From positions 1 to 44,892 of the IMG/VR virus record IMGVR_UViG_3300025316_000027: a DNA stretch of 44,892 bases; one strand, written 5' to 3'. Of this stretch, positions 3,239-39,550 are shown one piece after another (within the stretch, counting starts at the first letter, position 1; each line of letters starts with the position of its first letter). The notes beneath the pieces are model-generated. The model did no database searches. It had not been told where the DNA came from and saw only the letters and a program-made list of their open reading frames with translations. Source of the stretch: a virus. A program made the translations under genes and the position numbers.

Positions 3239-3263
3239 GCGCCGGTAGCTCAATTGGCAGATA
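3239..3263 (+). other. Orphan tRNA 5' half (acceptor strand plus D arm)
   Basis: The sequence reads GCGCCGG, TA, GCTC, a D loop with AATTGGCAG, then stops resembling a tRNA. This is the typical first third of a tRNA, but no matching 3' half follows. The intact tRNA-Trp begins 8 bases later with its own acceptor and D arm. It looks like the leftover 5' end of a tRNA that was replaced or invaded. Confidence 0.55.
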
Positions 3264-3270
3264 ATGATAT

Positions 3271-3343
3271 ACGGTAGAAGCTGTAGCGGCACAGCACCGG
3301 TCTCCAAAACCGGCATTTGAGAGTTCGAGCCTCTCCTACCGTG
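3271..3343 (+). tRNA. tRNA-Trp (anticodon CCA)
   Basis: Cloverleaf: acceptor ACGGTAG pairs with CTACCGT (7 of 7), D stem GCTG/CAGC, anticodon stem CCGGT/ACCGG around loop CTCCAAA, and T stem GAGAG/CTCTC around TTCGAGC. CCA is not encoded at the 3' end. An orphan 5' half of another tRNA lies immediately upstream. Confidence 0.85.
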
Positions 3344-3376
3344 TTAGTCCTGCTCGGCGCGTTAGTATTTGAAAGC

Positions 3377-3622
3377 ATGAAGGCGAGACGCATGGGCATG
3401 TACATTCCAACGATGCTGGTCGTTTACCTCCTCGAAATAGTGCTCGGAGTAGTAATCACCACCAACCTGGCCAGACGCCATGGGAAACAACAAGGTCAAT
3501 ACGACATGGTCTCTCCCATCCTCGGCTGCGGGATAATCGTCATTGGTGCACTGCTAACAGCTGTAGTGGTACTAGTAACCATATTGCTCTCGGTGCTAAA
3601 TCACGTAGGAAGCTGGACATGA
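3377..3622 (+). CDS. Small membrane protein with two predicted transmembrane segments, 81 aa
   Basis: Two hydrophobic stretches (about residues 10-33 and 46-72) are separated by a basic loop, giving a hairpin inner-membrane topology. The family is unknown; a holin-like or other membrane accessory role is possible but unsupported. I chose ATG 3377. The frame is open further upstream, but a start there (GTG 3341) would sit in the tRNA-Trp 3' end. The stop overlaps the next ATG (ATGA). Confidence 0.55.
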   Translation: MKARRMGMYIPTMLVVYLLEIVLGVVITTNLARRHGKQQGQYDMVSPILGCGIIVIGALLTAVVVLVTILLSVLNHVGSWT

Positions 3623-3786
3623 TCTGTGATTATTGCGGCAAAAACAGAATTGATGAACACGGCCTTAGTCAGCCATGCATGAAAGTGGTCTCTGCCGGCC
3701 ATTTGAAACCCAAGAATTGGTGCGGATGCGAGCGGGGACGCGAAACACTACGGCAGAAATTGGCTCGTTGGTTCAAGGGCGGTTAG
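3619..3786 (+). CDS. Very small zinc-ribbon protein, 55 aa
   Basis: The protein begins MICDYCGKN and later carries an isolated Cys and a WCGC pair, so CxxC...C...CxC could bind one zinc ion. The C-terminus is basic and helical. It starts at an ATGA overlap with the membrane protein gene, good evidence of coupled translation. A 13-bp inverted repeat begins six bases after its stop. Confidence 0.6.
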   Translation: MICDYCGKNRIDEHGLSQPCMKVVSAGHLKPKNWCGCERGRETLRQKLARWFKGG

Positions 3787-3791
3787 CAGTC

Positions 3792-3837
3792 GAACCATCT
3801 CCAACCAAACATAATCTAATGGCTTTGGAGATGGTTC
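3792..3837 (+). promoter_or_regulatory. 13-bp hairpin that would sequester the ribosome-binding site of the downstream endonuclease
   Basis: GAACCATCTCCAA (3792-3804) is perfectly complementary to TTGGAGATGGTTC (3825-3837), with a 20-nt loop. The GGAG at 3827-3830, 8 nt before the ATG at 3839, is inside the 3' arm, so read-through mRNA would hide it. T4 homing endonucleases such as I-TevI are silenced by this arrangement. Confidence 0.7.
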
Positions 3838-3838
3838 T

Positions 3839-4813
3839 ATGAGCGAGATGGATGATAAAATAATTGAGTTGTATGACGGCGGCCTGACTTATAAAGAAGT
3901 GTCATTAAAGACCGGCGCTAGTAATGCCAGAATATCTAAATTGGTAAAAGGCCATCGATCACAATCAGATGCTGGGAGATTGACGGTCTCCAAGGGCATA
4001 TGCAAAGTCGCAAATATGACATCGGAGCAATGCAGCGCGAACGCAATTAAATCGGCGATATCAAGCAGGAAATTTTGGACAAAACCAGAGCGAATGTTCA
4101 GAATATTACTGAATGAATGCGGCGTCGGCGTCAAGTTTCCGCCCGGCATGCATGAGATAATCAAACAAAGCGATGATGTCAATGCGGATATATTTTACCA
4201 ATACCCAATCCAAAGGTATTTATGCGACTTCGTTGACCTCACGCATAAAACCATATTTAGGATAAATGGTGACTACTGGCACGCCAACCCACTGCTTTAT
4301 CCAAATCAAGATGACCTAACGAAACCACAAAAACACAATAGGATTCAAGATCGAAATGCTAAAATTTACTTCGAGAAGCATGGGTGGATAATAATTGACA
4401 TATGGGAGAGTGAAATCGCATGGGACCAAGACAAAGTGAAACACATAATCCGGGCGGCTAGGGAAGCGGCTAACCCGACTGGCCTACATCCAGTAGATCC
4501 CCGGTTCGAATCCGGGGCCGCCCAATGGCAAGATAGGCTGAAAAAATTGTGGTTCAGGCAACCAAAAACAAAGACAAGAACCAATTTTGGGCACGGCATG
4601 TGTAAATGCGGAAAGCAATTCGAGTTTCAGAACCAGAGGGAAGCAGCAAGGAAAAAGTACTGCAGCGTAGTATGCTCTGCATTCTATAAGCGGAAAACGA
4701 AATGGCCAAGCAATTTGGCCGAGCTGGTTGCGCAGAGCTCAATGAGAGCAATTGGTATCTTATTGGGGGTGACAGACAAGGCCGTCAAGAAACACCTGAA
4801 GACTAAGGCCTAG
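3839..4813 (+). CDS. Vsr-like homing endonuclease with helix-turn-helix ends, 324 aa, containing a tRNA gene
   Basis: The N-terminus is a helix-turn-helix (about residues 7-38). Residues about 115-205 form a Vsr/very-short-patch-like nuclease: CDFVD, a GDYWHANP motif, then an RIQDRNAKIYFEKHGW helix and a WESE ending, as in the Vsr/EDxHD fold used by some phage homing enzymes. The C-terminus has a CKCG...C...C zinc knuckle and a second helix-turn-helix that closely resembles the C-terminus of the HNH enzyme at 14239-14976. Between the nuclease and the C-terminal module the frame passes, sense and in frame, through a complete tRNA gene (4452-4524). The ribosome-binding site is in a strong hairpin. 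Fold assignment is by motif only. Confidence 0.75.
   Translation: MSEMDDKIIELYDGGLTYKEVSLKTGASNARISKLVKGHRSQSDAGRLTVSKGICKVANMTSEQCSANAIKSAISSRKFWTKPERMFRILLNECGVGVKFPPGMHEIIKQSDDVNADIFYQYPIQRYLCDFVDLTHKTIFRINGDYWHANPLLYPNQDDLTKPQKHNRIQDRNAKIYFEKHGWIIIDIWESEIAWDQDKVKHIIRAAREAANPTGLHPVDPRFESGAAQWQDRLKKLWFRQPKTKTRTNFGHGMCKCGKQFEFQNQREAARKKYCSVVCSAFYKRKTKWPSNLAELVAQSSMRAIGILLGVTDKAVKKHLKTKA
4452..4524 (+). tRNA. tRNA-Val-like (anticodon TAC), embedded in the endonuclease frame
   Basis: Acceptor GGGCGGC/GCCGCCC, a 3-bp D stem GGG/CCC with GG in the loop, anticodon stem ACTGG/CCAGT around CCTACAT, T stem CCCGG/CCGGG around TTCGAAT, discriminator A. Position 33 is C instead of the near-universal T. 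The entire gene lies within codons of the 3839-4813 frame on the same strand. Confidence 0.75.
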
Positions 4814-4819
4814 ATCATT

Positions 4820-5263
4820 ATGGAACGAAGACAGATGGCATGGATTAGAAGCGGCAACCCCGTCCAGATGTTCACCGAGATGGTCAGCATCGTACGCGAA
4901 GGAATCATAGATGGTGAGGTAACTAATGCCTCCATCGTCAAGGTCCTAACCCCCATCGACCCCAACGACCCACGCCAACGCCACAATCAGAAAGCCGTCC
5001 TCCTCACCGACGAGACCAGCGATCGCCCCGGAAACCAGATCTGGTTATACCTGGAGGTGCAGTTCAAAGATGGAGGCACTTTTGGATGCCTCACTAAGGA
5101 TGGAGAGCGCTACTCAATGAACGCCGAGACCTCCATGATCGGTGGTGTCGGTGGTGAGGGCGAAGGCTGGACTTTACATAGTCCTACTGATCCCATGCAG
5201 TTCAGCCACCGGGTTGTTCAGCAGATTAAAGAATTCATTGGGAAGTTTTTGGAGAAGCAGTGA
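4820..5263 (+). CDS. Hypothetical protein, 147 aa
   Basis: Unrecognised soluble protein. The middle looks like beta-strands (residues about 50-100) and the end is an amphipathic helix. There are no cysteine motifs and no membrane segments. It starts 6 bases after the endonuclease stop, which suggests the endonuclease was inserted directly in front of it. The final codons overlap a GTG start of the next frame (GTGA). Confidence 0.55.
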   Translation: MERRQMAWIRSGNPVQMFTEMVSIVREGIIDGEVTNASIVKVLTPIDPNDPRQRHNQKAVLLTDETSDRPGNQIWLYLEVQFKDGGTFGCLTKDGERYSMNAETSMIGGVGGEGEGWTLHSPTDPMQFSHRVVQQIKEFIGKFLEKQ

Positions 5264-5661
5264 AGCTGGACGATCTGAAATGCGAAGTGTGCGGAAAGAA
5301 GGGAGTAGCCACTTGGTCAGCCACAGAGGGAGCCCGCTGTCAGGAACACAGCGGGTACGTGGAGAAACACAAAAATACCCCGGCAGGTGAGGCCACGAGT
5401 GCCAACTCGTGCACCGCCGGGGACCACCTGGGCGAGGACCATTTAGCAGGTCGCCGGGTTTGGGACCCGGAGATTCGTGTGGGTGCGAACCCCACCGCCC
5501 AGATTTACCGGCACGATTGTGGTAGCAGTTCAAAGCGGTGCATAGTACTTGGAATCCCAATGAAGAAGGGACTATTTCACCATATAACCCAGGGTGTAGC
5601 TCAGAGGCAGAGCGCTCGGTCCGGAACCGAGAGGCCGGGATCTCAAAATTCCCCACCCTGA
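5260..5661 (+). CDS. Small zinc-binding protein whose frame runs on through two tRNA genes
   Basis: The first 40 residues (CEVCGKKG...CQEH) look like a genuine zinc ribbon and the GTG start is coupled to the upstream gene. The frame then has no stop through a hairpin, a complete tRNA-Pro and a second tRNA, finally ending on a TGA formed by the last bases of that tRNA. The C-terminal two thirds is therefore tRNA sequence read as protein. Either the original stop was lost when tRNAs arrived or the product is a meaningless extension. Only the N-terminal part is convincing. Confidence 0.4.
   Translation: MKLDDLKCEVCGKKGVATWSATEGARCQEHSGYVEKHKNTPAGEATSANSCTAGDHLGEDHLAGRRVWDPEIRVGANPTAQIYRHDCGSSSKRCIVLGIPMKKGLFHHITQGVAQRQSARSGTERPGSQNSPP
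5378..5422 (+). other. Strong composite hairpin just upstream of tRNA-Pro
   Basis: CCCCGGC (5378-5384) pairs with GCCGGGG (5416-5422). Inside, GGTG can pair with CACC, and CACGAG/CTCGTG forms an apical 6-bp hairpin with a 6-nt loop. No T-tract follows, so it is not a classical terminator. It may be a leader or processing element for the tRNA-Pro transcript, or a small structured RNA. Confidence 0.45.
5428..5503 (+). tRNA. tRNA-Pro (anticodon TGG)
   Basis: Acceptor CTGGGCG/CGCCCAG (7 of 7), D stem GACC/GGTC, anticodon stem CCGGG/CCCGG around TTTGGGA, T stem GTGGG/CCCAC around TGCGAAC. The D loop lacks an obvious GG. It lies inside the open frame of the preceding zinc-ribbon gene. Confidence 0.8.
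5590..5661 (+). tRNA. Degenerate tRNA, anticodon loop TCCGGAA (CGG by numbering; possibly a decayed Arg CCG)
   Basis: Acceptor CAGGGTG/CACCCTG and D arm GCTC/GAGC are perfect, and the anticodon stem is CTCGG/CCGAG. The loop has C at position 33, and the T arm is damaged: the T53-T61 pair is mismatched and the loop reads CTCAAAA instead of TTCRANN. The loop would be a normal Arg(CCG) loop if one T were restored. It may be non-functional. Confidence 0.5.
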
Positions 5662-10341: not shown

Positions 10342-11253
10342 CTAGCGGCCAAACCGGCTGAAAGTTCTAACACGGTGACAGTTGGCACACACTAAGTCGC
10401 ATTTTATTATTTCGGCAGTCAACTCGCCAATGGTATACCTACGGCACGCCACATTAGATATATTAAATGACTTGGTCAGACTGTCACGGTGGTCAAATTC
10501 CATCGCTGTGGGGTGAAATTGGAGGCCACAGTCCTGGCATGGCTGCTTCTTGCGGTTCTGAACAAATGCTCGCTTATACAATCCAGACTCAGATGGAACA
10601 TCACCAATTAGCCGGTACTTATGCCCTAGCCTATGACAAACAGCACACAGTAGGCGGCATTTCTTGGACTCAAGCAGCGTGGCTTCCCAAGAGTTGCCAG
10701 CCAACATGTGACTCATACTTTTAAATTTATCAGACAAGTGATGAAAATCATACGCGGCGTTGTGGAACTGCCCACCGCATTCGCTGCACTTTCCACCCAT
10801 TATCTTAACTAATTTATCTTTCCTCAATCTGGCTCTCAGCCTTTTATTGCTAACTGAGACATTGTGGCATTTTGAACAATAATATAGTCCCGGTTGTGGC
10901 TCACCACCGCACCCCACGCACTGGCCCTCTATTTTACGACGACCGCGAACCCCCTCACGCTGCTGATTGGCGTGACAATTTGGACATATTCTGCAATAGG
11001 TAAATCCTCTTTCACACAAGTTATTAATATACTTACGGACTTTGCGCTTAGTGCCGCATTGCGGACAGTCACCAGCATCAGATTTGGAGTCAAGTCTGCG
11101 GAAGTAACTTGGATTGAAAACTGGGATATTGTGGCGTTTACAGAACTGACCTAAACCAACATCTGAAACACCTATTTCCTCCGCTATGGCGTTGAGTGGC
11201 CTCCGAGTAACTTCGGAGGCCACCCAAGCTATACTCTTTATGATTTTAGGCAT
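10342..11253 (-). CDS. Homing endonuclease with two tandem HNH domains, 303 aa
   Basis: The N-terminal helix-turn-helix is followed by zinc knuckles (CPQCG, CRICPNCH, CVGCG, CSKCH). A first HNH domain follows (CSECGG...YDFHHL...CRLLCAVCHR) and then a second (CQDCGL...MEFDHR...CDLVCANCHR). Single HNH domains are the rule in phage homing enzymes; two in one chain is unusual and suggests fusion or an internal dimer. A TCAAATATAG motif lies 3 bases before the ATG. It is inserted between the fibre gene and the next HNH gene. Confidence 0.8.
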   Translation of the reverse strand: MPKIIKSIAWVASEVTRRPLNAIAEEIGVSDVGLGQFCKRHNIPVFNPSYFRRLDSKSDAGDCPQCGTKRKVRKYINNLCERGFTYCRICPNCHANQQREGVRGRRKIEGQCVGCGGEPQPGLYYCSKCHNVSVSNKRLRARLRKDKLVKIMGGKCSECGGQFHNAAYDFHHLSDKFKSMSHMLAGNSWEATLLESKKCRLLCAVCHRLGHKYRLIGDVPSESGLYKRAFVQNRKKQPCQDCGLQFHPTAMEFDHRDSLTKSFNISNVACRRYTIGELTAEIIKCDLVCANCHRVRTFSRFGR

Positions 11254-12125: not shown

Positions 12126-12365
12126 ATGAAGATCGCCGTATTGTACGAGAATATGACGCCGCCAGAACTTCAAAACCACTTACAGCAGCAAGTCGAAGAA
12201 GCTCTCGGAGAGGTCAACCGTTGGTACTGCTCCCAGGCTATGGGATACAACGTCTCAGACCCAGAAATCCTCCTTAAATACTATATTAAGAATGGTGGAG
12301 CGGAGGGGTACCGCAAGCGCCACGAAGAATACCACCAAATGTCCGCCCCCTCACCCACTGTCTAA
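12126..12365 (+). CDS. Hypothetical protein, 79 aa
   Basis: An isolated + strand gene amid - strand genes. The protein (MKIAVLYENMTPPEL...) is predicted helical and ends in a basic, Tyr-rich segment. No family is recognised and the ribosome-binding site is weak. Its stop codon directly abuts the 3' end of a tRNA fragment on the other strand. Confidence 0.5.
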   Translation: MKIAVLYENMTPPELQNHLQQQVEEALGEVNRWYCSQAMGYNVSDPEILLKYYIKNGGAEGYRKRHEEYHQMSAPSPTV

Positions 12366-12406
12366 TGCACCCGGCGAGACTCGAACTCGCACAACCCAGC
12401 TTCGAA
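12366..12406 (-). other. tRNA 3' half of a split tRNA-Arg (probable anticodon TCG)
   Basis: On the - strand it reads TTCGAA, anticodon 3' stem GCTGG, variable GTTGT, T arm GCGAG/CTCGC around TTCGAGT, acceptor CGGGTGC, then A. No 5' half precedes it; instead the complete tRNA-Arg(CCG) and an HNH gene do. Its acceptor strand is exactly complementary to GCACCCG of the fragment at 13118-13145. Confidence 0.65.
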
Positions 12407-12480
12407 TGTCCCTGGTGGGATTCGAACCCACAAAATACCACCTTCGGAAAGTGGTGCCCATCCAATTGAGCATCAGGGAC
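12407..12480 (-). tRNA. tRNA-Arg (anticodon CCG)
   Basis: Acceptor GTCCCTG/CAGGGAC, D stem GCTC/GGGC, anticodon stem CCACT/GGTGG around TTCCGAA, T stem GTGGG/CCCAC around TTCGAAT. The first eight bases contain the TGA stop of the upstream HNH gene. It is located between the two halves of another, broken tRNA. Confidence 0.85.
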
Positions 12481-13054
12481 GCATAGGGAGAGTGTAATCT
12501 CGCGGAAGTTTTAATTTATCAAGAACCACAAGCCAATCGCCGCAATTACATATTGTATCAATAGCCTTATTTAATTGGCAATTATGATCTATAACTATCT
12601 TATCGTCAATTAGGCCACGGTGATATTCACCATGACAATTGTGGCAATAAGCGACACATTTCCTAAGTTCCGCAATAATCTTCTTGAATTGGTGCCCAAA
12701 CGCTTTATTTCCCAACTCAAACGACTTATCTTTAAGATGATGGAACACAATGTTGGTTATGGTTTTATCATAGCCACACTTTTGGCATCTATACCCAATT
12801 AAACAAAGGATTGCTCGCCGATTCCTACTTCGGATTAAATTAGCTGGGTCAGCGCCATGCGCCTCTACAAATTTATCGCGCCAATTGCGGGTATTATTAC
12901 GTTTCCTAGCCCTAAAATTCTCGACAGAGCAAGTGGGGCGGGGCGACTTGAATGGCTGACAATCAAGGCACCGAACTCGACTACCCAAATTATGGAGCTT
13001 GCCATCTATTGTCATCCAATTCGGAAACGTAGCGCCACATTTGCATGTTTTCAT
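12473..13054 (-). CDS. HNH homing endonuclease, 193 aa
   Basis: The N-terminal zinc knuckle (CKCG...CLDC) is followed by an HNH core: GYRCQKCGYDK, IVFHHLKDK, then CVAYCHNCHGEYHRG with all zinc and catalytic histidines present. The C-terminus is short and its TGA stop is formed inside the 5' acceptor strand of tRNA-Arg(CCG). A TCAAATATAG motif lies 3 bases before the ATG. The gene sits within a split tRNA, as expected if the enzyme cleaves a tRNA anticodon region. Confidence 0.85.
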   Translation of the reverse strand: MKTCKCGATFPNWMTIDGKLHNLGSRVRCLDCQPFKSPRPTCSVENFRARKRNNTRNWRDKFVEAHGADPANLIRSRNRRAILCLIGYRCQKCGYDKTITNIVFHHLKDKSFELGNKAFGHQFKKIIAELRKCVAYCHNCHGEYHRGLIDDKIVIDHNCQLNKAIDTICNCGDWLVVLDKLKLPRDYTLPMRP

Positions 13055-13073
13055 ATACTATATTTGACACTAA

Positions 13074-13101
13074 GTACTCTATCCAATTGGGCTACACTAA
13101 G
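13074..13101 (-). other. Orphan tRNA 5' half (fragment B)
   Basis: On the - strand: CTTAGTG, TA, GCCC, AATTGGATA, GAGT, AC, a tRNA acceptor and D arm. No partner with CACTAAG was found in the window. It lies between the 5' half of the split tRNA-Arg and the HNH gene, and its first eight bases recur just after it (CTTAGTGT). Confidence 0.5.
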
Positions 13102-13117: not shown

Positions 13118-13145
13118 GTGCCCTATCCAATTGGACTACGGGTGC
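13118..13145 (-). other. tRNA 5' half of the split tRNA-Arg (fragment A)
   Basis: On the - strand: acceptor GCACCCG, TA, D stem GTCC/GGGC around AATTGGATA, AC, then the tRNA pattern stops in the anticodon stem. The acceptor pairs 7 of 7 with CGGGTGC of the 3' half at 12366-12406, about 710 bases downstream. Its TAG at tRNA positions 8-10 is the stop codon of the preceding RMF-like gene. Confidence 0.65.
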
Positions 13146-13876: not shown

Positions 13877-14258
13877 CAGCTTCCTTTAGTTCTTTTCGGG
13901 TGCTCTTGAATACTTTTACATACGACCGATTAGTCACCAGCATTCCGTGCTCCCATAGGCCCTCATAGACCCCATTGCCATCGTAGAAAAACTCTCTAGT
14001 TCCTGTTCTACTAAATGCCCAGGTGGCAGGTTTAACCCGGACATGGAACACTGGCTTACTGCCTGGCGATTCCACAGCATCAGAAACATACCACTTATTC
14101 GGCCATTTGTCTGATGTATCTGGCAATGCGCCGATCCCCGCAAAGCACTCACGATCAAGCTCTGTGGTTATTGCATCAGTCATTAAATCAAAAATGGTCG
14201 GCGGACGCATAGGCCGCAGTCCCACAATCCCTAGAACCTCATACGTGTAACGTCCCAT
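13836..14258 (-). CDS. Hypothetical protein, 140 aa
   Basis: Unrecognised soluble protein rich in Trp, Tyr, Phe and charged residues. The start overlaps the last 20 bases of the HNH endonuclease gene, which means the endonuclease was placed flush against this gene. It is one of several small, unrelated-looking accessory proteins in this tRNA region. Confidence 0.55.
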   Translation of the reverse strand: MGRYTYEVLGIVGLRPMRPPTIFDLMTDAITTELDRECFAGIGALPDTSDKWPNKWYVSDAVESPGSKPVFHVRVKPATWAFSRTGTREFFYDGNGVYEGLWEHGMLVTNRSYVKVFKSTRKELKEAVDAWTREQNLSLE

Positions 14259-14976
14259 AATGGTTCTTTATCCTTTTTGCGACAGCTTTGTCTGAAACAC
14301 CCAATGATATTGCGACAGCCCGATACGATGAATTCTTTATTAGCTCTGGGAGATTATCTGGCCAAGTAATTTTCTCCCGTTTAATAAGGGCACACTCGCG
14401 GCATGTATTCCCACGCCTCATTAGCTTGCCACACCTGCACCTCTTGGCGTGCAATCGTTTGTTAACAAGCACTGGTGATATGCCCATCTTATCGGCGACT
14501 ACTTCTATTGTCTCGTTCGCAACCAAGCCAGCGAGGTCATCAGGCCACTTTATTTTATTGGCATACTGGCATTGACATTTCCATGAACAGAATTTATTGC
14601 CCTTGGTTGGCCTCCCGCACTCGTGGCAATATGTGAATTTATGGCTAGTTGGGATTGGTCTCTGAGGCCCAATGGCTGCCATCGCCACCTTGCGATTATC
14701 AACATTAACTTCTGGACATGCCCTAATACCAGCGTGAATCTCACCATGACAATTATGACAGACCATCACGCATTTATCCGCCTCCTCAATAATATCATTC
14801 CACGATGAGCACTTATTAATCAACCTAGCCATGGCTGCCTTTTTATCTCGCAAATGGTGCCATGCAAAGTTGCCGTGATATTTATCATATCCACATGACT
14901 GACATTTACCCCCACTGTACTTGACGAGCCACTGTTTTGCCTTAACTCGCCATCGTTGTGTGCTAACATAACTCAT
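14239..14976 (-). CDS. HNH homing endonuclease with two zinc/helix-turn-helix tails, 245 aa
   Basis: The HNH core is at residues about 20-85: GKCQSCGYDKYHG, FAWHHLRDK, CVMVCHNCHGEIHAG. Two DNA-binding units follow, each a zinc knuckle plus a helix-turn-helix (KIKWPDDLAGLV... and KITWPDNLPELI...). The second is nearly the same module as the C-terminus of the Vsr-like enzyme at 3839-4813, a clear case of module exchange between nuclease folds. I chose ATG 14976 with GAGGG upstream. tRNA-Thr lies 37 bases upstream. Confidence 0.8.
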   Translation of the reverse strand: MSYVSTQRWRVKAKQWLVKYSGGKCQSCGYDKYHGNFAWHHLRDKKAAMARLINKCSSWNDIIEEADKCVMVCHNCHGEIHAGIRACPEVNVDNRKVAMAAIGPQRPIPTSHKFTYCHECGRPTKGNKFCSWKCQCQYANKIKWPDDLAGLVANETIEVVADKMGISPVLVNKRLHAKRCRCGKLMRRGNTCRECALIKREKITWPDNLPELIKNSSYRAVAISLGVSDKAVAKRIKNHYGTLHV

Positions 14977-15012
14977 CGAACCCTCGATTAAAACATTATG
15001 TTTGCATAGAAT

Positions 15013-15084
15013 AGCCACCGGTAGGATTCGCACCTACAACCACCCGTGTACAAGACGGGAGCTCTGCTATTGAGCTACGGCGGC
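15013..15084 (-). tRNA. tRNA-Thr (anticodon TGT)
   Basis: Acceptor GCCGCCG/CGGTGGC, D stem GCTC/GAGC, anticodon stem CCCGT/ACGGG around CTTGTAC, T stem GTAGG/CCTAC around TGCGAAT. It is preceded by an almost identical extra copy of its 5' half and followed by an HNH endonuclease gene. Confidence 0.85.
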
Positions 15085-15114
15085 AGTCCGGCTCTGCCAT
15101 TGAGCTACGGCGGC
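15085..15114 (-). repeat. Duplicated 5' half of tRNA-Thr
   Basis: On the - strand the 24 bases from GCCGCCG through the D arm repeat those of the adjacent tRNA-Thr with one mismatch (AATGGCAG versus AATAGCAG), followed by CGGACT. There is no 3' half, so it is a partial tandem duplication at the 5' side of the tRNA. Confidence 0.7.
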
Positions 15115-23554: not shown

Positions 23555-23627
23555 TGACCTCGGCAAGATTCGAACTTGCGACTTCTTCGGTGTGATCGAA
23601 GCACTCTAACCGCTGAGTTACGAGGCC
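23555..23627 (-). tRNA. tRNA-Val (anticodon CAC)
   Basis: Acceptor GGCCTCG/CGAGGTC, D stem ACTC/GAGT, anticodon stem CTTCG/CGAAG around ATCACAC, T stem GCAAG/CTTGC around TTCGAAT. Its bases 8-10 (TAA) are the stop codon of the upstream LAGLIDADG gene. Confidence 0.9.
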
Positions 23628-24343
23628 GGAATCAGCCTTCTATACTTTAATGAATTTTTGAGCTTATCTTTATCGGCTGCATCCCAAATTGCCTTCTTAC
23701 GATCCAAGAACATGGTGGCATCTTTGTACAACCAACTACATATCATTGCGGTATCGAATTGGCCATACCGCAATTTTTGGCTGACAGCGTTTGGGTTATG
23801 TTTGAATTTTTTATATATACCTAAATGCTTATTTATTGTGGCAGCAACCTCATCAAGCAAATTGCCAGTTGCGTTTCCGGCTGAAAAAGACAGTCGTAGA
23901 TTACTAACGCGCTTACCGTGCCGTGTTTTATAATTAACCCAGTGGATAGAGCCATCACCGTCAAAAAACCCACGTATAAAATGGTGAGTAAGATGTGATG
24001 GTATATCGAATGGCAGCTTAAGACGCGTCTCACTTTTCCGTGTGGTTTGAGCATATTTAAAGCAAAAGTCAAACAATTTGGCCGAGTAGATCAGGATTTG
24101 CCAGCAAGCTTTGCACCTAACCGTCGCCGCGTGGCTCAAACACACCTCTTTCCCCAGAAACTTGGAGAAATAGCAAAGGAATTCGCGGTCTACACTTGCC
24201 AGACCCCATGTCTTATCGATTCTTGATTTATTCTTCTTAAAACAAATCCAGCCATCAGCATACCAAAAGCCTAAGATATATGCCGAGTTTTCATTCCAAG
24301 TATCAAACAGATCGTGGTTTATGCGGTTCGAGTCCGTTTTCAT
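23618..24343 (-). CDS. LAGLIDADG homing endonuclease with two motifs, 241 aa
   Basis: Two LAGLIDADG helices are clear: YILGFWYADG (residues 22-31) and FIRGFFDGDG (residues 122-131), each ending in the catalytic acidic residue, so a monomeric pseudo-dimer enzyme is expected. I chose ATG 24343, 12 bases after a TCAAAAATAC element. The last codons and the TAA stop are formed by the 5' end of tRNA-Val(CAC). It lies between tRNA-His and tRNA-Val. Confidence 0.85.
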   Translation of the reverse strand: MKTDSNRINHDLFDTWNENSAYILGFWYADGWICFKKNKSRIDKTWGLASVDREFLCYFSKFLGKEVCLSHAATVRCKACWQILIYSAKLFDFCFKYAQTTRKSETRLKLPFDIPSHLTHHFIRGFFDGDGSIHWVNYKTRHGKRVSNLRLSFSAGNATGNLLDEVAATINKHLGIYKKFKHNPNAVSQKLRYGQFDTAMICSWLYKDATMFLDRKKAIWDAADKDKLKNSLKYRRLIPAS

Positions 24344-24377
24344 ATGGTATTTTTGACCGAACCTCACGCGCTTGAAG

Positions 24378-24546: not shown

Positions 24547-25137
24547 CTAAGCGGGGTTATTCTCGTCATATCCGTCATTGGCCACGTAATATTGATCCAA
24601 CCCTTCCATTGATATAAGGCTAACGTTAGCAATCACATGGAATGGAATCATCCAACAATCACCATTCTTATGGCAAAAAAACCAGTAATCGAAACTTCCC
24701 TTTTTAAACGCCTCTTTGGTAGATATCTTGGTGTTAAAGTGCGATCTACGTAGACCAAACTCTGGCCAATTTCTGTTGCTTAGACTAGTTGAGCCTCTAA
24801 CCTGAATCGTGATTATCTTGCCTTGCTTCAATGCAAACAAGTCAAACACGCACTTTGGATCAGACTCTCCAACCTGCCAGCCTCTAGCTGTCAAAAACTC
24901 CTTGCACTTATTAACTGCCACAACCCTCAGGAATTCATCGTCTACTTCACCGAATTCCTTAAGGCCATCGGCAGCCGCCTCTTGCTCTTCTTGAGAGTGC
25001 CTAATACAATACTTGACAGTGGAAATCGAGCACCCAAGTATCTCGGCAATCTCCTCATTCGTTGATCCTCTTAATTTAAGCCGCAAAATTACGCTCTTGA
25101 AGTAATACCTACCACGCAGCCTATCATACCTATCCAT
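24547..25137 (-). CDS. PD-(D/E)XK homing endonuclease, 196 aa
   Basis: A helix-turn-helix (about residues 24-47, GSTNEEIAEILGCSISTVKYC) precedes a nuclease of the same group as the 16799-17353 protein: KCVFDLFALKQGKIITIQVRG supplies the D and QxR/K residues, and FDYWFFCHKNGDCWMIP matches VDYFFLFDQNKNSWLIP there. Arg in place of the usual catalytic Lys is noteworthy and may weaken activity. A hairpin (CCCCGC/GCGGG) follows the stop. A TCAAATATAG motif 37 bases before the ATG directly abuts the tRNA-Ser 3' end. Confidence 0.7.
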   Translation of the reverse strand: MDRYDRLRGRYYFKSVILRLKLRGSTNEEIAEILGCSISTVKYCIRHSQEEQEAAADGLKEFGEVDDEFLRVVAVNKCKEFLTARGWQVGESDPKCVFDLFALKQGKIITIQVRGSTSLSNRNWPEFGLRRSHFNTKISTKEAFKKGSFDYWFFCHKNGDCWMIPFHVIANVSLISMEGLDQYYVANDGYDENNPA

Positions 25138-25173
25138 AGTCTACTCCATCAGTAAAACAACCAATGCAATAAA

Positions 25174-25183
25174 CTATATTTGA
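25174..25183 (-). promoter_or_regulatory. Candidate endonuclease promoter, TCAAATATAG
   Basis: Exact copy of the 10-mer found before other endonuclease genes. It starts at the base next to the tRNA-Ser discriminator and would drive the PD-(D/E)XK gene alone. Confidence 0.5.
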
Positions 25184-25638: not shown

Positions 25639-26439
25639 TTATGGACCCGATCCCGGTCCCTTCATTTTCACGTACAACGCGGCTTTCCGGCGTGCAGCGT
25701 CCCGCTGCTGAGGAGTAAATGAGATCCCAGATTTGACCAGCGCATCAGCCTGCTTCCTGACCACCTCAACCCCATCCGCGCCCAACGTGTTAGCCAACAC
25801 GCCTAAGAACTCAGCCTGCTCCTTTGGATCCAAAGCCAACGCAACCTCAGCCGCGTCCCTGGCCGCTCCCTCCTCGTCTGGCGAAGCCTTCTTAGAGGCC
25901 GCCAAATTCTTAGCATACTCCTGCAACTGATCGATAGCCTGCGATAACAAGTCCGATTCCTTCTGAATTGCTGCTACCTTAGTGGCCGCATCGCCATCGT
26001 CCGCTTCCTTCATCAGCTGCACGTGAGCATCATAGAAGGCCAAATACATCTTCTTGGCGGCGGCGTCATTCCCCGAGCCCTCTATCTGAACCATTAACTC
26101 TTGCAGATTCTTGTACTTGACCCCATTTTCATCAGACAGGGTCTTCACCTTGTCGTACAATGCCTTATGCTGCCCCAAATTCCGCAGCGTCTCATCGCGA
26201 ATCCGCTGGCTATTGGCGCTAAGACCACGCATGCCTTCGCTGGGCTTAGTCTCCCCCACACTAACCGTAGTCTTCATCACCCCATTGTAAATGATCGAAG
26301 CAAGAACCATCAGGATACGCCCAACTGGGTTCGCAGCCACCGCGTCTAAAATCTTCCCCACCTTGCCGCCCATCCCAGGCTGGCCTGGCTGGCTGGGCTG
26401 CTCATCCGCCTCCATGAGATATAGATTATATAGCTTCAT
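25639..26439 (-). CDS. Hypothetical protein, probable virion or head-region component, 266 aa
   Basis: Begins MKLYNLYLMEADEQPSQPGQPG, a start style (short hydrophobic peptide, then EAD) seen in head and scaffold-region proteins of T4-like phages. A hydrophobic stretch (about residues 38-56) is followed by long Ala/Lys/Glu-rich coiled-coil helices, ending in a basic tail. I cannot assign a role. GAGGTGATC precedes the ATG. The inserted TnsA-like gene upstream overlaps its first 14 bases. Confidence 0.55.
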   Translation of the reverse strand: MKLYNLYLMEADEQPSQPGQPGMGGKVGKILDAVAANPVGRILMVLASIIYNGVMKTTVSVGETKPSEGMRGLSANSQRIRDETLRNLGQHKALYDKVKTLSDENGVKYKNLQELMVQIEGSGNDAAAKKMYLAFYDAHVQLMKEADDGDAATKVAAIQKESDLLSQAIDQLQEYAKNLAASKKASPDEEGAARDAAEVALALDPKEQAEFLGVLANTLGADGVEVVRKQADALVKSGISFTPQQRDAARRKAALYVKMKGPGSGP

Positions 26440-27523
26440 CGATCACCTCTATATTATGTTTGGGCCTAAATAGCCGCTTCTCTGTGACTACTACAAAATC
26501 GAGATCATTATCTAGACAATGCCTTCTAGCAGCTATAAATTTTGCCGGATTCCGTTCCATAGAAATCAAACGAGATGGTTTAACCTCAACTAACTCAGCG
26601 TGGTCTTCATAGATCACCAAGAAATCGGGGGTGTACGACTTAATTATCCCATCGTGCTCATATTCAATTTGAAAAGGCTCATACTCAAACTTAACGACTT
26701 GTGGATCACTCTCAAGAATATTCACGTACTTAGTCTCATAACTCGACCTCGTACGAAAATTTCCACCCTTTAATGTAATCATGTCTTGCCCAACACCACG
26801 GCCTGGCCTAATCTTCCCCTCTTTAAATAACTTCACCGCCCTCTCGCTTAGCTCCTTGCGATATGCCATATACTCATTGGCAGACATGGCTCTAATCCTA
26901 GCCGATGACCGAGCAGCCATTTTTGGCGCGGCTTTTTCCATGTGCTTGGATATTATACTACTAAGGACGGATGGGTCACGATGCAGTCCAAGCTCATTCA
27001 TTCTCCTCCACAATGCAGCGTGGCTAACACCAAGAGAATTCGCAATCTCTCTTTGACCCATATCGTCTTTGTGTTTTAGAATAAACTCATCCGACTCTTT
27101 AGTAAAGTCATACTGTTTTATTGAATTGGCGATCTTATTTCTTTTTTGCTCTGAGCATATTCTCAGTGGCACCACGCCCAGCAACCTAGCTCTCTTAGCA
27201 ACTTGTTTTGCTGACGCGGCTACTTGATACTTCTTACAAAATTCAGCGACCGAATGATTCGGTAGACCAGACTTAATAAAATCATCATATTTAGCCCAAT
27301 CAATGCGCCAGACTAGGCGGCTCCTTACAGCCCTGGAAATAGCTAGCTTTTGCTCTGGTGAGATAACCTTGTGAGCTGACTTAATGCCAAGCTTTCTAGC
27401 TCTCATGCCAATAGTTCTAGGGATTGTAAATGGTGTAAACTGACCACAAAAGTTTACACAACTCATACTTGGTAGATGCTGTCTAATGAGTGGATCAACG
27501 ACAGCCCAATCAATCGCTTTCAT
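26426..27523 (-). CDS. PD-(D/E)XK (TnsA-like) nuclease with N-terminal helix-turn-helix repeats, probable homing endonuclease, 365 aa
   Basis: The first about 180 residues contain several DNA-binding units of the type QREIANSLGVSHAALWRRMNELGL. The C-terminal about 120 residues are a TnsA-like nuclease: SSYETKYVNIL (Glu), YTPDFLVIY (Asp) and ELVEVKPS (ExK), then a helix (KFIAARRHCLDNDLDF). This fold is shared with TnsA and several phage nucleases. The N-terminal repeats and its insertion, overlapping the next gene, fit a homing enzyme. A TAAATATAA element and GGAGG precede the ATG. Confidence 0.7.
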   Translation of the reverse strand: MKAIDWAVVDPLIRQHLPSMSCVNFCGQFTPFTIPRTIGMRARKLGIKSAHKVISPEQKLAISRAVRSRLVWRIDWAKYDDFIKSGLPNHSVAEFCKKYQVAASAKQVAKRARLLGVVPLRICSEQKRNKIANSIKQYDFTKESDEFILKHKDDMGQREIANSLGVSHAALWRRMNELGLHRDPSVLSSIISKHMEKAAPKMAARSSARIRAMSANEYMAYRKELSERAVKLFKEGKIRPGRGVGQDMITLKGGNFRTRSSYETKYVNILESDPQVVKFEYEPFQIEYEHDGIIKSYTPDFLVIYEDHAELVEVKPSRLISMERNPAKFIAARRHCLDNDLDFVVVTEKRLFRPKHNIEVIDEAI

Positions 27524-27568
27524 ATGGCCTCCTGGTTATATTTACTCAGAAGGCGAGCGATTATAAAA

Positions 27569-28648
27569 TTAGGCAAAACTTATGCGCCAGCGGCATATAA
27601 TCTGGAAATCTGAGGATTTCTTGAACGGCACGCTCAGAATCCTCTGGCTGAACAGCCGAAGCGTCGTGCGATAGATCCCAATTGGACCAGTGAGCGGCGC
27701 ACCTGCACTGGTCACTGGCGTACGGTCCAATACAATATCGCGCCCGCCCACCGCCTTCGTCAAGGCCAGATAATATGGGTTGGATTGCTCAATTGGGTCA
27801 TACTCCTCAGCAGACCCGCTACGCCCCACAATGTAGATCTGATCGCCTTCCTTAATTCGGTTGACGTCAGAAGCATCAACGGTTGGATCGATGGTGATCG
27901 TTTGCGAGCCGTTGGCCACCGCAATAATCTGCTTGTCGTTCAGGCCGCCCACGCCTTCCAGGAACAATAGGCTCGGGACGCAATCGCATGGCGTAGAGGT
28001 ATCGGGCAGGATTGCCCCGCCGGCCAAAGCCACCTCAGTAATGGCAAAGAAATCGCCGCTAGTAACCCCAAATCCATTATACTCGCCAGATTCGAGCGTG
28101 GTTTCGAGCACCAGGACGTTGTTGACTGCCCTAACGTCACTGGAGAGCAGCGGACTCTCAGGTGGCTGGTAAGACGGCTCAAAATAGGCCCGCTCAATCT
28201 TCTTAAGAGGCCGATCTGGATCGGAAATGGGGATTGGATTGATGAGGTCGCCGCCATGGTCTGCTCCGACATCTGGCGTCTTAGCGACTGGCGTGCCAGT
28301 CACGGGATCAATTGTATAGTACCTGGTATCGGTCGAACTGAGTGGGTATCCGTAGGTTGAACTGGCCTTGTCACTGTCAAAGGAAGCACCAAAGAGGATG
28401 TACTTTGCGGCGAATTCCTCCAAAGCGTCAATTCCAGAGTCTACCCATCCACCGGTCCCGGACGATGCGGTTGGATCCCACACTTTGGAGTATGGGAGGC
28501 GGTGGGAAAGCATTTCTTTGGCGAAGATTTTGATGAGGTTATGCTCACGGTGCCTACTGATAAGGTTGCCGTGGCGGTCGCGGATTTCGATTTCGACTTC
28601 GCCGCGATACTGCTTGAAGGATTCGGAGACAGTTATCTTGGAGGACAT
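27569..28648 (-). CDS. Virion structural protein, probably tail or baseplate, 359 aa
   Basis: The N-terminus (EIEIRDRHGNLISRHREHNLI) and C-terminus (LRLFSQRILSVPFKKSSDFQIICRWRISF) resemble tail and baseplate-associated structural proteins annotated in large myoviruses. The middle is beta-rich. No enzyme motif or membrane segment is visible. It is the first of a series of - strand structural genes. The exact position in the virion is not known. Confidence 0.6.
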   Translation of the reverse strand: MSSKITVSESFKQYRGEVEIEIRDRHGNLISRHREHNLIKIFAKEMLSHRLPYSKVWDPTASSGTGGWVDSGIDALEEFAAKYILFGASFDSDKASSTYGYPLSSTDTRYYTIDPVTGTPVAKTPDVGADHGGDLINPIPISDPDRPLKKIERAYFEPSYQPPESPLLSSDVRAVNNVLVLETTLESGEYNGFGVTSGDFFAITEVALAGGAILPDTSTPCDCVPSLLFLEGVGGLNDKQIIAVANGSQTITIDPTVDASDVNRIKEGDQIYIVGRSGSAEEYDPIEQSNPYYLALTKAVGGRDIVLDRTPVTSAGAPLTGPIGIYRTTLRLFSQRILSVPFKKSSDFQIICRWRISFA

Positions 28649-33693: not shown

Positions 33694-34365
33694 TTAAACT
33701 GGGATTTCTTCCCAAATAACTGAGTAAGCATACAACTGTGTGGCATTTGTTACATTAGGTGTGGGCAACCATCCCATACCTTGTGGTATTACGATCTTTC
33801 CATCAATCAGATCAACAGTCGAGATGGGGAAGGTCACTGCTGCAGTTTGTGCCGATGACAAGCTTACTCCAAAATTAGCCATGTAAAGTGGGAAGGGAGC
33901 CGTACCACCAGTGAATGCGGTTCCACCAGCACTAAACAAAGTATTAGCAACTGGCTTAGCTGGCGTCCCGCCCATATTATATGCTCCATACTGGCCAGCC
34001 CAGCCTGTGGCTATTGATACCGCAGCTGTATTCATCATTTGGTGCCAAATGGCACCAATCTGTAAAGTAGATGCTGCGCCGCTAATAAGACCACAATTAA
34101 ATTGCCAAAGTACGAGGTTTTTACCAGAGCCCACTGGATTCCAGATAATGAAATTAAGGGCGGCGGCGGCGGCTCCAGCCATTACCTGCCCGGCCCCAGC
34201 CGTAGTGCAACTCCCGCTAAATCCGAATACGTTACCGTTGTACACGGCGTCTTGAAAGCGAGCGTGCCCCTCCACAACTGTGGTTGCAGCGCTTCTATCA
34301 CTGCGCAGAATGGCATTGCTGCCTGCAGCAAGATTTAACGGGCCTACTTGGGTTTCAATTAACAT
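33694..34365 (-). CDS. Structural paralogue A1 of a four-gene tandem array, 223 aa
   Basis: Starts MLIETQVGPLNL; shared landmarks are HARFQDAV(Y)NGN, IWNPVGSGKNLVLWQFN, LIDGKIVIPQGMGWLP and the terminal YSVIWEEIPV. I chose the ATG with GGAGA upstream. Ser/Thr/Ala-rich beta protein, probably a virion decoration or fibre subunit. It shares this layout with the next three genes, implying repeated duplication. Confidence 0.65.
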   Translation of the reverse strand: MLIETQVGPLNLAAGSNAILRSDRSAATTVVEGHARFQDAVYNGNVFGFSGSCTTAGAGQVMAGAAAAALNFIIWNPVGSGKNLVLWQFNCGLISGAASTLQIGAIWHQMMNTAAVSIATGWAGQYGAYNMGGTPAKPVANTLFSAGGTAFTGGTAPFPLYMANFGVSLSSAQTAAVTFPISTVDLIDGKIVIPQGMGWLPTPNVTNATQLYAYSVIWEEIPV

Positions 34366-34379
34366 GCAATTCTCCGATT

Positions 34380-35045
34380 TTAAGCCGCTATTTCTTCCCA
34401 AACAATAGAATAAGCGGTGTTGTCGCTGCTTCCAGTTCCAGCCCGCAGTGGTAGCCAACCCATGCCTTGGGGAATTATAATTTTCCCATCAATGAAATCA
34501 TTGGTGTAGTTGGGGTTGGCTAAAGTGTTAGTGTTGGTGTTGGCCATGGAGAAGTTAGCCATACACACCTGATAGGGTGCTCCACCGCCAGTAAAATTAG
34601 TGGTATCGGCTGCCACAAACCATACGTTGGCCACTGATTTGCTGAACGAACCATTTAGGTTATAAGGGCCAAGCCCGGCTGCCACTGAGGATACTGCCGA
34701 AACGTTGGAAGTGTTCATCATCCCATGCCACGCAGGGCCAGCGGTTGGGGTTCCGCTGATAATGCCCATTCCAAAAACCCATAATACCAGGTTCTTCCCA
34801 GAACCAACTGGGTTCCATATAGCAAAATTAAGATGGCCACCAGCGGCACCGCCAACTATTTGGGCGGCAGCGGTGGCTGTAGCTACGCCAGTAAACCCAT
34901 AGACATTGCCCTGTATGACGGCCTCTTGAAAGCGAGCATGGGTATCAACTGTAACAACGGCACCAGTGCGATCCGAACGAATAGTGGGTCTAGCCATATT
35001 CGCAAGATTTTGTATGCCAACTTGAGTTTCAAGAGGGGCGATCAT
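34380..35045 (-). CDS. Structural paralogue A2, 221 aa
   Basis: Same family as its neighbours: ETQVGIQNL, HARFQEAVIQGN, IWNPVGSGKNLVLWVF, FIDGKIIIPQGMGWLP, YSIVWEEIAA. The variable centre (PTAGPAWHGMMNTSN...) differs most. AAGGAG precedes the ATG. Co-transcribed with A1, A3 and A4. Confidence 0.65.
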   Translation of the reverse strand: MIAPLETQVGIQNLANMARPTIRSDRTGAVVTVDTHARFQEAVIQGNVYGFTGVATATAAAQIVGGAAGGHLNFAIWNPVGSGKNLVLWVFGMGIISGTPTAGPAWHGMMNTSNVSAVSSVAAGLGPYNLNGSFSKSVANVWFVAADTTNFTGGGAPYQVCMANFSMANTNTNTLANPNYTNDFIDGKIIIPQGMGWLPLRAGTGSSDNTAYSIVWEEIAA

Positions 35046-35054
35046 ACATTCTCC

Positions 35055-35714
35055 TTAAGCGGGTATTTCTTCCCATACCACCGAATAACTAACCACAAGT
35101 GCAGAACTGGCCGTACCATAAATCAGAGGAACCCAGCCTATGCCTTGTGGAATAATAATTCTTCCCTCAATTAAATCAGTAGTAGGGTTAGGCCAAGTCG
35201 CAGCGGTTCCTGGGGCGACCGTTTGTGTAAAATTAGCCATACAAACCGGGTAAGGAGCCAAACCGCCAGTTATAGCTGTTCCAGCAGTGCTGTTTAGGCA
35301 AAACATCTGCGACCCACCCGAAGCTCCATTGAGGTTGCGAATACCACCGGAAGAAGTAGCCGTTACAGATGTAGCGTTAAAAAGGGCATGGAAAACCGGA
35401 TACGACGTAAGCGTAGTGCAGGTTACTACACATAGATTGAATTGCCACAAAACTGCTATTTTCCCTGAGCCAATAGGATTCCAGAGACAGAAGTTTGTAG
35501 AAGCGGCAGCACCCGCACCATAAGCATTGCCTGCTACTACAGTATTATTTGTGGCCGCAGCTTGACAGAGGGCGAAACAGTTACCCTGCAAGACCGCCTC
35601 TTGAAAGCGAGTGCGAGCATCTGAGATCACCATCGCCCCCGAGCGATCAACTCGAATCGGAGGCTTAGACCCAGCAGTCAGGATTTTTGCTCCAACTTCA
35701 GTTTCGACTATCAT
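35055..35714 (-). CDS. Structural paralogue A3, 219 aa
   Basis: MIVETEVGAKIL, TRFQEAVLQGN, LWNPIGSGKIAVLWQFN, LIEGRIIIPQGIGWVP, YSVVWEEIPA. Contains a few extra cysteines in the central segment compared with the other copies. TAGGAG precedes the ATG. Virion-component status is inferred from context. Confidence 0.65.
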   Translation of the reverse strand: MIVETEVGAKILTAGSKPPIRVDRSGAMVISDARTRFQEAVLQGNCFALCQAAATNNTVVAGNAYGAGAAASTNFCLWNPIGSGKIAVLWQFNLCVVTCTTLTSYPVFHALFNATSVTATSSGGIRNLNGASGGSQMFCLNSTAGTAITGGLAPYPVCMANFTQTVAPGTAATWPNPTTDLIEGRIIIPQGIGWVPLIYGTASSALVVSYSVVWEEIPA

Positions 35715-35737
35715 ATTTGCTCCTAATTAGTCTGGGA

Positions 35738-36388
35738 CTAGCTCGGAATTTCTTCCCAGACAACTGAAAAGCCAACAACATATGTTCCTGCGCCAGCCAG
35801 TAGTGGAACCCAGCCCATGCCTTGCGGAACAATAATTTTACCTTCAAGCAAGTCAGTAGTATTCACTGGATAAGCTACAGCTTGGGCAATGGCTGTACCT
35901 GAAAAATTAGCCATGCAGACTTGGTATGGGGCTTGTTGGCCGGTCATTGTAACCCCACCAGCACTAGCAACATATGCTGCGTGGGGTCCAGAAAGCTGTC
36001 CCATCAAATTTCTAGCTGTGCCAGTAACTGCTGCTGAGACAGCTTGAGCATTATATAAGCAGTGCCATACAGGACCAGCCGCCGGAGTACCAGAAACATA
36101 CCCCAAATTAAATTGCCAGAGAACTAAATTTACGCCTGAGCCAATTGGATTCCAGATTGTAAAATTAGTGGAGGCAGCGGTGGCACCAGAGGTGGGCAAG
36201 TAATTACCCGCTTGTGGGTTAGTAGTTACTGCGGTTAGGCATAGCCCAAAAACGTTACCATTAAGCACAGCCTCCTGGAAACGAGCATGGGCATCAGTTA
36301 CTGCCAGGGCTGCGCTACGATCTCCACGGGCGGCTGGGCGAACACCATTAGCGAGAATTTGTGGACCAACTTGGATTTCAGCTATCAT
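35738..36388 (-). CDS. Structural paralogue A4, 216 aa
   Basis: MIAEIQVGPQIL, HARFQEAVLNGN, IWNPIGSGVNLVLWQFN, LLEGKIIVPQGMGWVP, FSVVWEEIPS. It is the first gene of the array in transcription order, with TAGGAG before the ATG and a 68-base gap to the upstream five-gene array in which I see no clear terminator. Confidence 0.65.
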   Translation of the reverse strand: MIAEIQVGPQILANGVRPAARGDRSAALAVTDAHARFQEAVLNGNVFGLCLTAVTTNPQAGNYLPTSGATAASTNFTIWNPIGSGVNLVLWQFNLGYVSGTPAAGPVWHCLYNAQAVSAAVTGTARNLMGQLSGPHAAYVASAGGVTMTGQQAPYQVCMANFSGTAIAQAVAYPVNTTDLLEGKIIVPQGMGWVPLLAGAGTYVVGFSVVWEEIPS

Positions 36389-36456: not shown

Positions 36457-37491
36457 TTAACTACCTGCAAAAATTGTTACGTCTGGACCTAATGCTGGTG
36501 GGGCATATGAATAAGGTGAGGTAGAGGCAGCTATACACAATCCAGTAGTAAAAGATCCTAAACTAAAATTCCCTGCGGGGACAACGTAGGGACCAGGTGG
36601 TAAAGCAATGGTATATAAAACAGTGCCGCTAAACATCCCAGAATAACTGGCTATATTATAGAATAGTAAGTATATTAGGATATCATTAGGGTTATTGGCA
36701 ATTATGCTCATGCTACTATTGGCGGCGGCTGTGATTAGACAACGTTGAAGAGCAGGATAAAACCGAGGGATTAAAGTTGCGGCATTGGTGATAGATTGGA
36801 CAATAGTAACTGAATTATTAGTGTATAATGAAGTAAGCACAGAGAGGTAATTCATAGGAAATGCTGTTGATGCCCGAAGAGTAATAGACGCCCCACCCGT
36901 TCCGGTCCAAGCAATAAGCCGAACTATTTTATATCCACTACATGGAATAAGAAATATATCAGGCGCTGAGGCTGAAGTGCCCTGTGCGTTGCCAGATGGC
37001 ATTGCGTATGAATTTGATAATATTACAAGTTTTGGGACTACTGAATAATATATGCCGTCTAGCGAATACGCCGCATAAATGTAGCCTGTCGAAGCAACAC
37101 CATAACTATCAATTCCGGCAGCAACTATGGAATGCCCATTTAGGGATATATCAACATATGATCCTTTAATGAATGATTGACTTACACCAGAGCCAATGTA
37201 GCTTGGGGCGGTTACTGTTATCCGTCCGCTCACTACCACATCTGGCATGCTTGTAGCTACCACTTGGTCATTTGCTATGGTTACCGGCAACGATGCAGCA
37301 GAACTCCCCATCCCAGTTTGCGATAGTGCTTCCAAATAATTTTCAATATCCTGCATCGTCTCCAATTGCTCTTCAAGTATCTCGTTGACGGACGGGGAGT
37401 TTACAGCCAGACCACTCACTGGGTCAATTTGCGCAATATTCCCATTCAGATCATTTATCTGTGTAATTTGATTTGCTAAGTTTTGTGCCAC
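36457..37491 (-). CDS. Structural paralogue B1 of a five-gene tandem array, 344 aa
   Basis: All five share an N-terminal leader (MAQxL...ITQI.D..GNIAQIDPVSGL.V.SPS) with an acidic helix, then EALSQTG...AASLPVTIANDQVVATSMPDVVVSG, a central beta domain (DISLNGHSIV, YAAYSLDGIYY, IPCSGYKIVRL), RASTAFPMNYLS, NNPNDILIYLLFYN and the end FTTGLCIAAS(T)SPYSY..LGPDVTIF. A fibre or decoration protein is likely. B1 is the distal copy. Confidence 0.65.
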   Translation of the reverse strand: MAQNLANQITQINDLNGNIAQIDPVSGLAVNSPSVNEILEEQLETMQDIENYLEALSQTGMGSSAASLPVTIANDQVVATSMPDVVVSGRITVTAPSYIGSGVSQSFIKGSYVDISLNGHSIVAAGIDSYGVASTGYIYAAYSLDGIYYSVVPKLVILSNSYAMPSGNAQGTSASAPDIFLIPCSGYKIVRLIAWTGTGGASITLRASTAFPMNYLSVLTSLYTNNSVTIVQSITNAATLIPRFYPALQRCLITAAANSSMSIIANNPNDILIYLLFYNIASYSGMFSGTVLYTIALPPGPYVVPAGNFSLGSFTTGLCIAASTSPYSYAPPALGPDVTIFAGS

Positions 37492-37492
37492 A

Positions 37493-38497: not shown

Positions 38498-38505
38498 TTT
38501 AATCC

Positions 38506-39549: not shown

Positions 39550-39550
39550 A

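Follow-up and report, generated by a model that had tools for sequence, protein, structure and literature searches.

A Vsr-like endonuclease gene in a phage tRNA cluster probably has its C-terminus encoded in the 5' end of a tRNA-Val(UAC) gene, with the frame reading on through the tRNA into an in-phase orphan tail of an HNH endonuclease. The DNA analysed, here called the window, was a stretch of 44,892 nt (positions 1 to 44,892 of IMG/VR record IMGVR_UViG_3300025316_000027). The locus is known from this one metagenome-derived viral contig.

Open Reading Frame and tRNA Gene

The two central features of the locus were as follows.

3839-4813, plus strand: endonuclease ORF with an ATG start, 324 aa, zero internal stops
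4452-4524, plus strand: tRNA-Val(UAC) with a full cloverleaf (ARAGORN, Rfam), nt 1-20 of which double as codons for the end of the last Vsr helix (structure model)

The tRNA scored 58.9 bits against the Rfam tRNA family, for which the gathering score is 29, and was also called by ARAGORN. The ORF and tRNA calls place the complete tRNA inside one open frame, in sense orientation. Residue 204 is the final codon ahead of the tRNA. The last two bases of the next codon, CGG for R205, are tRNA nt 1-2 (reading ATA ATC CGG GCG GCT AGG GAA). The stops within the tRNA, TAG at nt 8-10 and TAA at nt 20-22, are offset by one base from the endonuclease frame, so the nuclease frame carries on through the tRNA. 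It exits still open and meets its first stop at 4811. A first-pass annotation had claimed that cloverleaf and open frame were both intact, and the ORF scan, ARAGORN and Rfam all agree with this.

A sense frame open across a tRNA is ordinary on its own. At least one such frame was present in 20 of the 21 tRNAs of the window and 29 of the 63 sense frames were open overall. What is unusual at 3839-4813 is the combination of a long genuine gene 5' of the tRNA with a recognisable domain 3' of it. In 12 of the 126 tRNAs compared, a frame open for 80 codons or more entered the 5' end, and tRNA-Val(UAC) 4452-4524 was the only one passed completely.

A shorter frame at 5260-5661 on the plus strand passes in sense through a whole tRNA-Pro UGG (5428-5503) and ends where the following tRNA does, on the final nt of 5590-5661 (plus strand). 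This is probably the frame of a small zinc protein, open by chance. The tRNA at 5590-5661 was matched by Rfam and missed by ARAGORN; with an anticodon loop of TCCGGAA it is probably Pro CGG.

Identity of the Nuclease Domain

Two domains were recognised upstream of the tRNA.

3839-3949, plus strand: N-terminal helix-turn-helix, residues 1-37 (weak HTH/sigma-70 r4 matches; predicted helices 2-13 and 18-37)
4022-4471, plus strand: Vsr-like nuclease fold, residues 62-211, with D130, NGDYWHAN at 143-150 and W189-E190 (homologues, model, Foldseek, profile)

Sequence matches to the nuclease were weak and DUF559 fell below its cut-off. The whole ORF gave zero matches at 1e-5 against 50,697 phage genomes, and the nuclease part alone gave weak, distant matches only. 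In a search of viral sequences, relatives of the nuclease were encoded at 88 viral loci. An AlphaFold2 model was built from a 40-protein alignment. The Vsr core was modelled at high confidence, with a pLDDT of ~94 for the last helix (197-211). The top Foldseek match in the PDB was the I-Bth0305I catalytic domain 3r3p (E 4.9e-4, target-length TM-score 0.84), which was also recovered by profile search (E 1.2e-7). The Vsr structures 1cw0 and 1vsr were matched as well, ranked below 3r3p. D130, N143, D145, H148, N150 and E190 were invariant in all 40 aligned relatives, and E84 was present in 28 of them. From sequence and model, the nuclease is classed by family as a Vsr-like (I-Bth0305I-type) free-standing homing endonuclease, and homing is predicted. 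The Vsr-like identity given in the first-pass annotation was borne out by the I-Bth0305I/Vsr fold and the retained core D, H and E residues.

Searches with the tail module, the downstream gene, a 1088-aa protein and a tRNA pattern of 30 nt gave neither an empty site nor a phage closely related to this one. There was thus no allele lacking the gene with which to compare the locus.

Position of the Nuclease C-Terminus

The C-termini of 82 Vsr homologues lay between -15 and +34 residues (median +8) of the equivalent of residue 204. The query frame runs for 120 further residues past the tRNA start compared with this median of 8, ending soon after the core being a habit of Vsr relatives and not a catalytic criterion. 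Three more relatives, from bacterial and metagenome-assembled genomes, likewise end after the core. Relatives align with the query up to residue 210, and tRNA nt 1-20 specify residues 205-211, which the AlphaFold2 model assigns to the last Vsr helix. Together, the homologue ends and the span of the last helix place the natural C-terminus of the nuclease within the 5' part of the tRNA.

These results also bear on a sequencing or assembly indel, by which the true nuclease frame would stop at the TAG of tRNA nt 8-10 and the tail would be untranslated. The read-through could have arisen from an assembly error of one base close to 4450, just ahead of the tRNA, and TAG 8-10 and TAA 20-22 do lie in the adjacent frame. 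Stops at tRNA nt 6-8 and 8-10 are used by two more endonuclease genes of the window, and the homologue range would accommodate an end 3 residues past position 204. However, the tRNA-coded residues plausibly extend the last helix, the relatives align to residue 210, and the reported frame keeps its codon preference up to the tRNA. An indel was considered very unlikely.

The Zn/HTH C-terminal module was present in none of the 82 Vsr homologues, and the Vsr-tRNA-Zn/HTH architecture was not found in any homologue (82 viral and 3 genome relatives). No tRNA was found adjoining a Vsr homologue. Adjacency to a tRNA is therefore a habit of tRNA-cluster endonucleases and not of the Vsr family. The tRNA as a conserved family linker was rejected, as it is absent from every homologue: alignment of the 82 relatives, proposed as a check on whether the linker is always tRNA sequence, gave no homologue with such a linker. 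The idea of a single protein spanning the tRNA was in this way weakened on one side only. The homologues have neither linker nor C-terminal module; the sequence itself has no stop before 4811 and no sign of translation ending ahead of the tRNA.

Segment Downstream of the tRNA

The frame continues beyond the tRNA into two segments.

4525-4597, plus strand: coding-like linker in the same frame, directly 3' of the tRNA (by endonuclease codon usage the best of six frames; low structure confidence)
4598-4813, plus strand: orphan Zn (CxC...C...C) and helix-turn-helix module of an HNH homing endonuclease, with stop TAG (phrog_15471, HNH gene of the window)

The Zn knuckle and helix-turn-helix occupy residues ~250-324. 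The module aligned to positions 100-171 of 183 in phrog_15471, an HNH endonuclease family (E 2.3e-5). The window also holds an HNH-type gene at 14239-15033, the tail of which shared 48% identity with residues 274-322. The zinc and HTH residues are kept in the module. Codon usage showed that coding preference in the reported frame begins at the first codon after the tRNA, so this segment is either recent or still translated. No HNH catalytic core was present at 3839-4813, the Pfam and PHROGs HNH-family matches covering the C-terminal tail only.

A scan for the module gave five loci, every one in a phage tRNA cluster. Four of these (L088, L089, L090 and L092) carry HNH+Zn+HTH genes. At the fifth (L091, 2905-3196) an orphan HTH lies between tRNA-Pro and tRNA-His, and its frame runs into both tRNAs; this orphan sits downstream of an EF-Tu-like gene on a 377-kb viral contig. 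The module was attached to a Vsr domain at none of the five. On sequence grounds, the C-terminal module is most readily taken for a relic, an orphaned HNH tail. This agrees with an earlier suggestion that a nuclease gene had become fused across the tRNA to a second relic, given that the Vsr relatives end at the tRNA position and HNH endonucleases carry this module as their tail.

The reverse order of events would be a tRNA gene inserted in an older Vsr-Zn-HTH endonuclease gene with the frame unbroken, for which an intact domain on each side in one frame is what would be expected. The tail, however, belongs to HNH enzymes, and a Vsr protein with such a tail was found in 0 of 82 viral and 0 of 3 genome relatives. 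Insertion of a bare tRNA would also shift the frame, 73 nt not being a multiple of three. With no such older gene found, this extremely improbable explanation was rejected.

Overlap of Endonuclease Genes and tRNA Genes

About ten nuclease-type genes lie amid the 21 tRNAs of the window and include HNH, LAGLIDADG, GIY-YIG, PD-(D/E)XK and TnsA-like types, some of them called by eye only (e.g., 10342-11253). Two of these genes end inside a tRNA.

12473-13054: HNH gene, stop at tRNA-Arg nt 6-8
23618-24367: LAGLIDADG gene, stop at tRNA-Val(CAC) nt 8-10

The GIY-YIG gene of the window ends 7 nt short of tRNA-Tyr. Similar overlaps were present in phage T5 (AY543070). There the stop of hegC is nt 12-14 of tRNA-Ser2 (overlap 14 nt), that of hegD is nt 21-23 of tRNA-Gln2 (overlap 23 nt) and that of T5.069, a T5orf172/MUG113 protein, is nt 22-24 of tRNA-Asn (overlap 24 nt). 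These T5 genes resemble the gene at 3839-4813 in being endonuclease-type genes right before a tRNA with their last codons formed by tRNA sequence. They differ in that they stop inside the first 24 nt of the tRNA and are HNH or GIY-YIG-like, not Vsr. The gene at 3839-4813 has endonuclease 3' codons in the tRNA 5' part and lacks a stop codon there. As overlaps recur in the window and in T5, and both tRNA stops are off phase here, 3839-4813 represents the extreme of a recurrent overlap.

A candidate rule is that homing endonucleases of phage tRNA clusters often take their last codons and stop from the 5' end of a tRNA. If the rule holds, 5' processing of the tRNA would strip the stop codon from the endonuclease mRNA.

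Upstream Region and Possible History

Three features precede the endonuclease gene.

3619-3786, plus strand: small zinc-type ORF (MICDYCGKN...RWFKGG, 55 aa; sequence reading)
3777-3787, plus strand: GGGCGGTTAGC, equal to the first 11 nt of the tRNA-Val(GAC) of the window (11/11 match, window-wide E 4.6)
3792-3837, plus strand: RNA hairpin burying the Shine-Dalgarno GGAG (3827-3830) just before the ATG at 3839 (folding)

The final codons of the small ORF, AAG GGC GGT TAG, spell a tRNA-Val-like 5' end, and GGGCGGTTAGC provides the stop of this gene. As a suggestion only, GGGCGGTTAGC may be a 5' remnant of a tRNA-Val gene fronting the endonuclease insertion; such a remnant would be consistent with entry of the endonuclease gene into a tRNA-Val gene and restoration of a whole tRNA downstream. 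It was not accepted as proof of insertion into a tRNA, the match being short, with a window-wide E of 4.6 and its weight coming from position alone.

The hairpin had a folding energy of -24.0 kcal/mol (z -4.28) and was equalled by 0 of 200 shuffles. A terminator was rejected because no U run is present 3' of it, and a role at the ribosome site was preferred for the same reason. Similar ribosome-site hairpins were seen on the minus strand at 25126-25183 for a PD-(D/E)XK-type nuclease gene (24547-25137, z -4.8) and at 27512-27581 for a TnsA-like nuclease gene (26426-27523, z -3.1).

Broken tRNA genes were observed elsewhere in the cluster. On the minus strand, tRNA-Arg halves at 13120-13145 and 12365-12404 have matching acceptor arms (GCACCCG / CGGGTGC) and lie ~700 nt apart, with a tRNA 5' fragment (13079-13095), an HNH endonuclease and an intact tRNA-Arg(CCG) between them. 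From its sequence, this tRNA-Arg was apparently split by insertion. At 15091-15114 on the minus strand a 24-nt copy of a tRNA-Thr 5' half (23/24 identical) precedes the intact tRNA-Thr (15013-15084) by six nt. The split tRNA-Arg and the duplicated tRNA-Thr 5' half indicate that tRNA genes of the cluster have been repeatedly broken and duplicated. At 3240-3344 (plus strand) a tRNA-Trp has a second, different 5' half, CGGTAGCTCAATTGGCAGA, directly upstream, and its D arm looks replaced.

The minus strand carries two tandem arrays of paralogues, one of five genes (~330-347 aa) at 36457-41575 and one of four (~216-254 aa) at 33694-36388; their products are possibly virion surface proteins. A collagen-like repeat protein with GPCG-type repeats is encoded at 41914-43164 (minus strand).

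Comparison With Known Systems

In Alphaproteobacteria the tRNA-Sec gene (selC) is nested in the selB ORF, and tRNA processing was proposed to give non-stop mRNA and alternative products (PMC8124441). As at 3839-4813, a whole tRNA gene lies in sense within a protein frame and the products are proposed as alternatives. However, selC codes for a C-terminal extension of a conserved gene in many species, whereas 3839-4813 is a homing endonuclease gene on one phage contig with a foreign domain after the tRNA.

SegB of phage T4 is likewise a free-standing homing endonuclease of a tRNA cluster, with its gene ending 5 nt ahead of tRNA-Arg, but it is a GIY-YIG enzyme with no tRNA overlap. A hairpin covers the ribosome binding site of T4 segB (PMC2988022), and the hairpin at the 3839 gene resembles those of T4 segB/mobE in hiding this site. 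SegB, the most thoroughly studied endonuclease of tRNA clusters, cuts within tRNA genes at the motif RAWTSGAAC (PMC13096335). By our own comparison, the complement of this motif resembles the T-arm sequence GTTCGAATC.

I-Bth0305I (Vsr-like/EDxHD) shares the fold of its catalytic domain with the nuclease, and the D, NGDYWHAN and WE motifs are invariant among the viral relatives of the latter. It is only distantly related in sequence, and 3839-4813 is set apart by its overlap with a tRNA and by the HNH-type module behind it. The HNH homing endonucleases of tRNA clusters (phrog_15471, 14239-15033 and the four HNH+Zn+HTH loci) share the Zn/HTH C-terminal module but have their own HNH core, which is missing at 3839-4813. 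The read-through locus is a variant of a known overlap, not a new system.

Proposed Order of Events and Transcript Fates

In tRNA maturation RNase P cleaves at the tRNA 5' end. An order of events, with transcript fates and function, can be proposed from the architecture, the homologue ends, the origin of the module and the recurrence of the overlap. A free-standing Vsr-like homing endonuclease gene sits directly 5' of tRNA-Val(UAC), within an endonuclease-rich phage tRNA cluster. The last Vsr helix would close the natural protein, its final residues being specified by roughly the first 20 nt of the tRNA, an arrangement shared with T5 hegC/hegD. Most genes of this kind reach a stop in the 5' part of the tRNA. 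An orphan Zn/HTH tail of an HNH endonuclease would lie in phase 3' of the tRNA by chance or recombination. An RNase P cut at 4451/4452 would leave a non-stop mRNA ending near residue 204. An uncut transcript would be translated from 3839, with no stop before 4811, to give the 324-aa fusion, the synthesis of which the hairpin over the ribosome binding site may limit. The same logic of cut and uncut transcripts would apply to every endonuclease gene with a stop inside a tRNA, the T5 genes included. By analogy, competition between RNase P and translation at 3839-4813 is plausible; it has already been published as a hypothesis for selB/selC (PMC8124441).

The fusion may instead be a functional chimera, in which the Vsr domain cuts, the tRNA-coded segment is a linker, the Zn/HTH module binds and RNase P switches between tRNA supply and nuclease synthesis. 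All 324 codons are open, the C-terminal zinc and HTH residues are kept and coding-like in the same frame, a like competition has been proposed for selC nested in selB (PMC8124441), and the ribosome-site hairpin makes tight control likely. On the other side, the architecture occurs in no homologue and the Vsr relatives work without the C-terminal module. The structure confidence of the linker in AlphaFold2 is low, and a chance junction in phase would be no rare event (~0.46 for the tRNA frame × 1/3 for the phase). No relative shows the Vsr-tRNA-Zn/HTH arrangement kept by selection, close relatives not having been found and the distant Vsr relatives being without it. A functional chimera was considered unlikely. 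A wider proposal, also argued by analogy, has the linker of such a chimera supplied by a working tRNA, with RNase P setting nuclease dose and all cluster endonucleases with stops in tRNAs under non-stop mRNA control; it is rather doubtful. The preferred reading thus remains a nuclease that probably ends in the tRNA 5' part and is read on into an HNH relic.

A literature search on RNase P and phage endonuclease mRNAs found no report. To our knowledge, a brake of the kind proposed for selB/selC has not been examined for phage endonucleases. If the fusion is a functional chimera, each transcript would give either a mature tRNA-Val or a full nuclease. If the rule of stops taken from tRNA 5' ends is true, the layout of phage tRNA clusters would itself act as a brake on a nuclease that may be costly.
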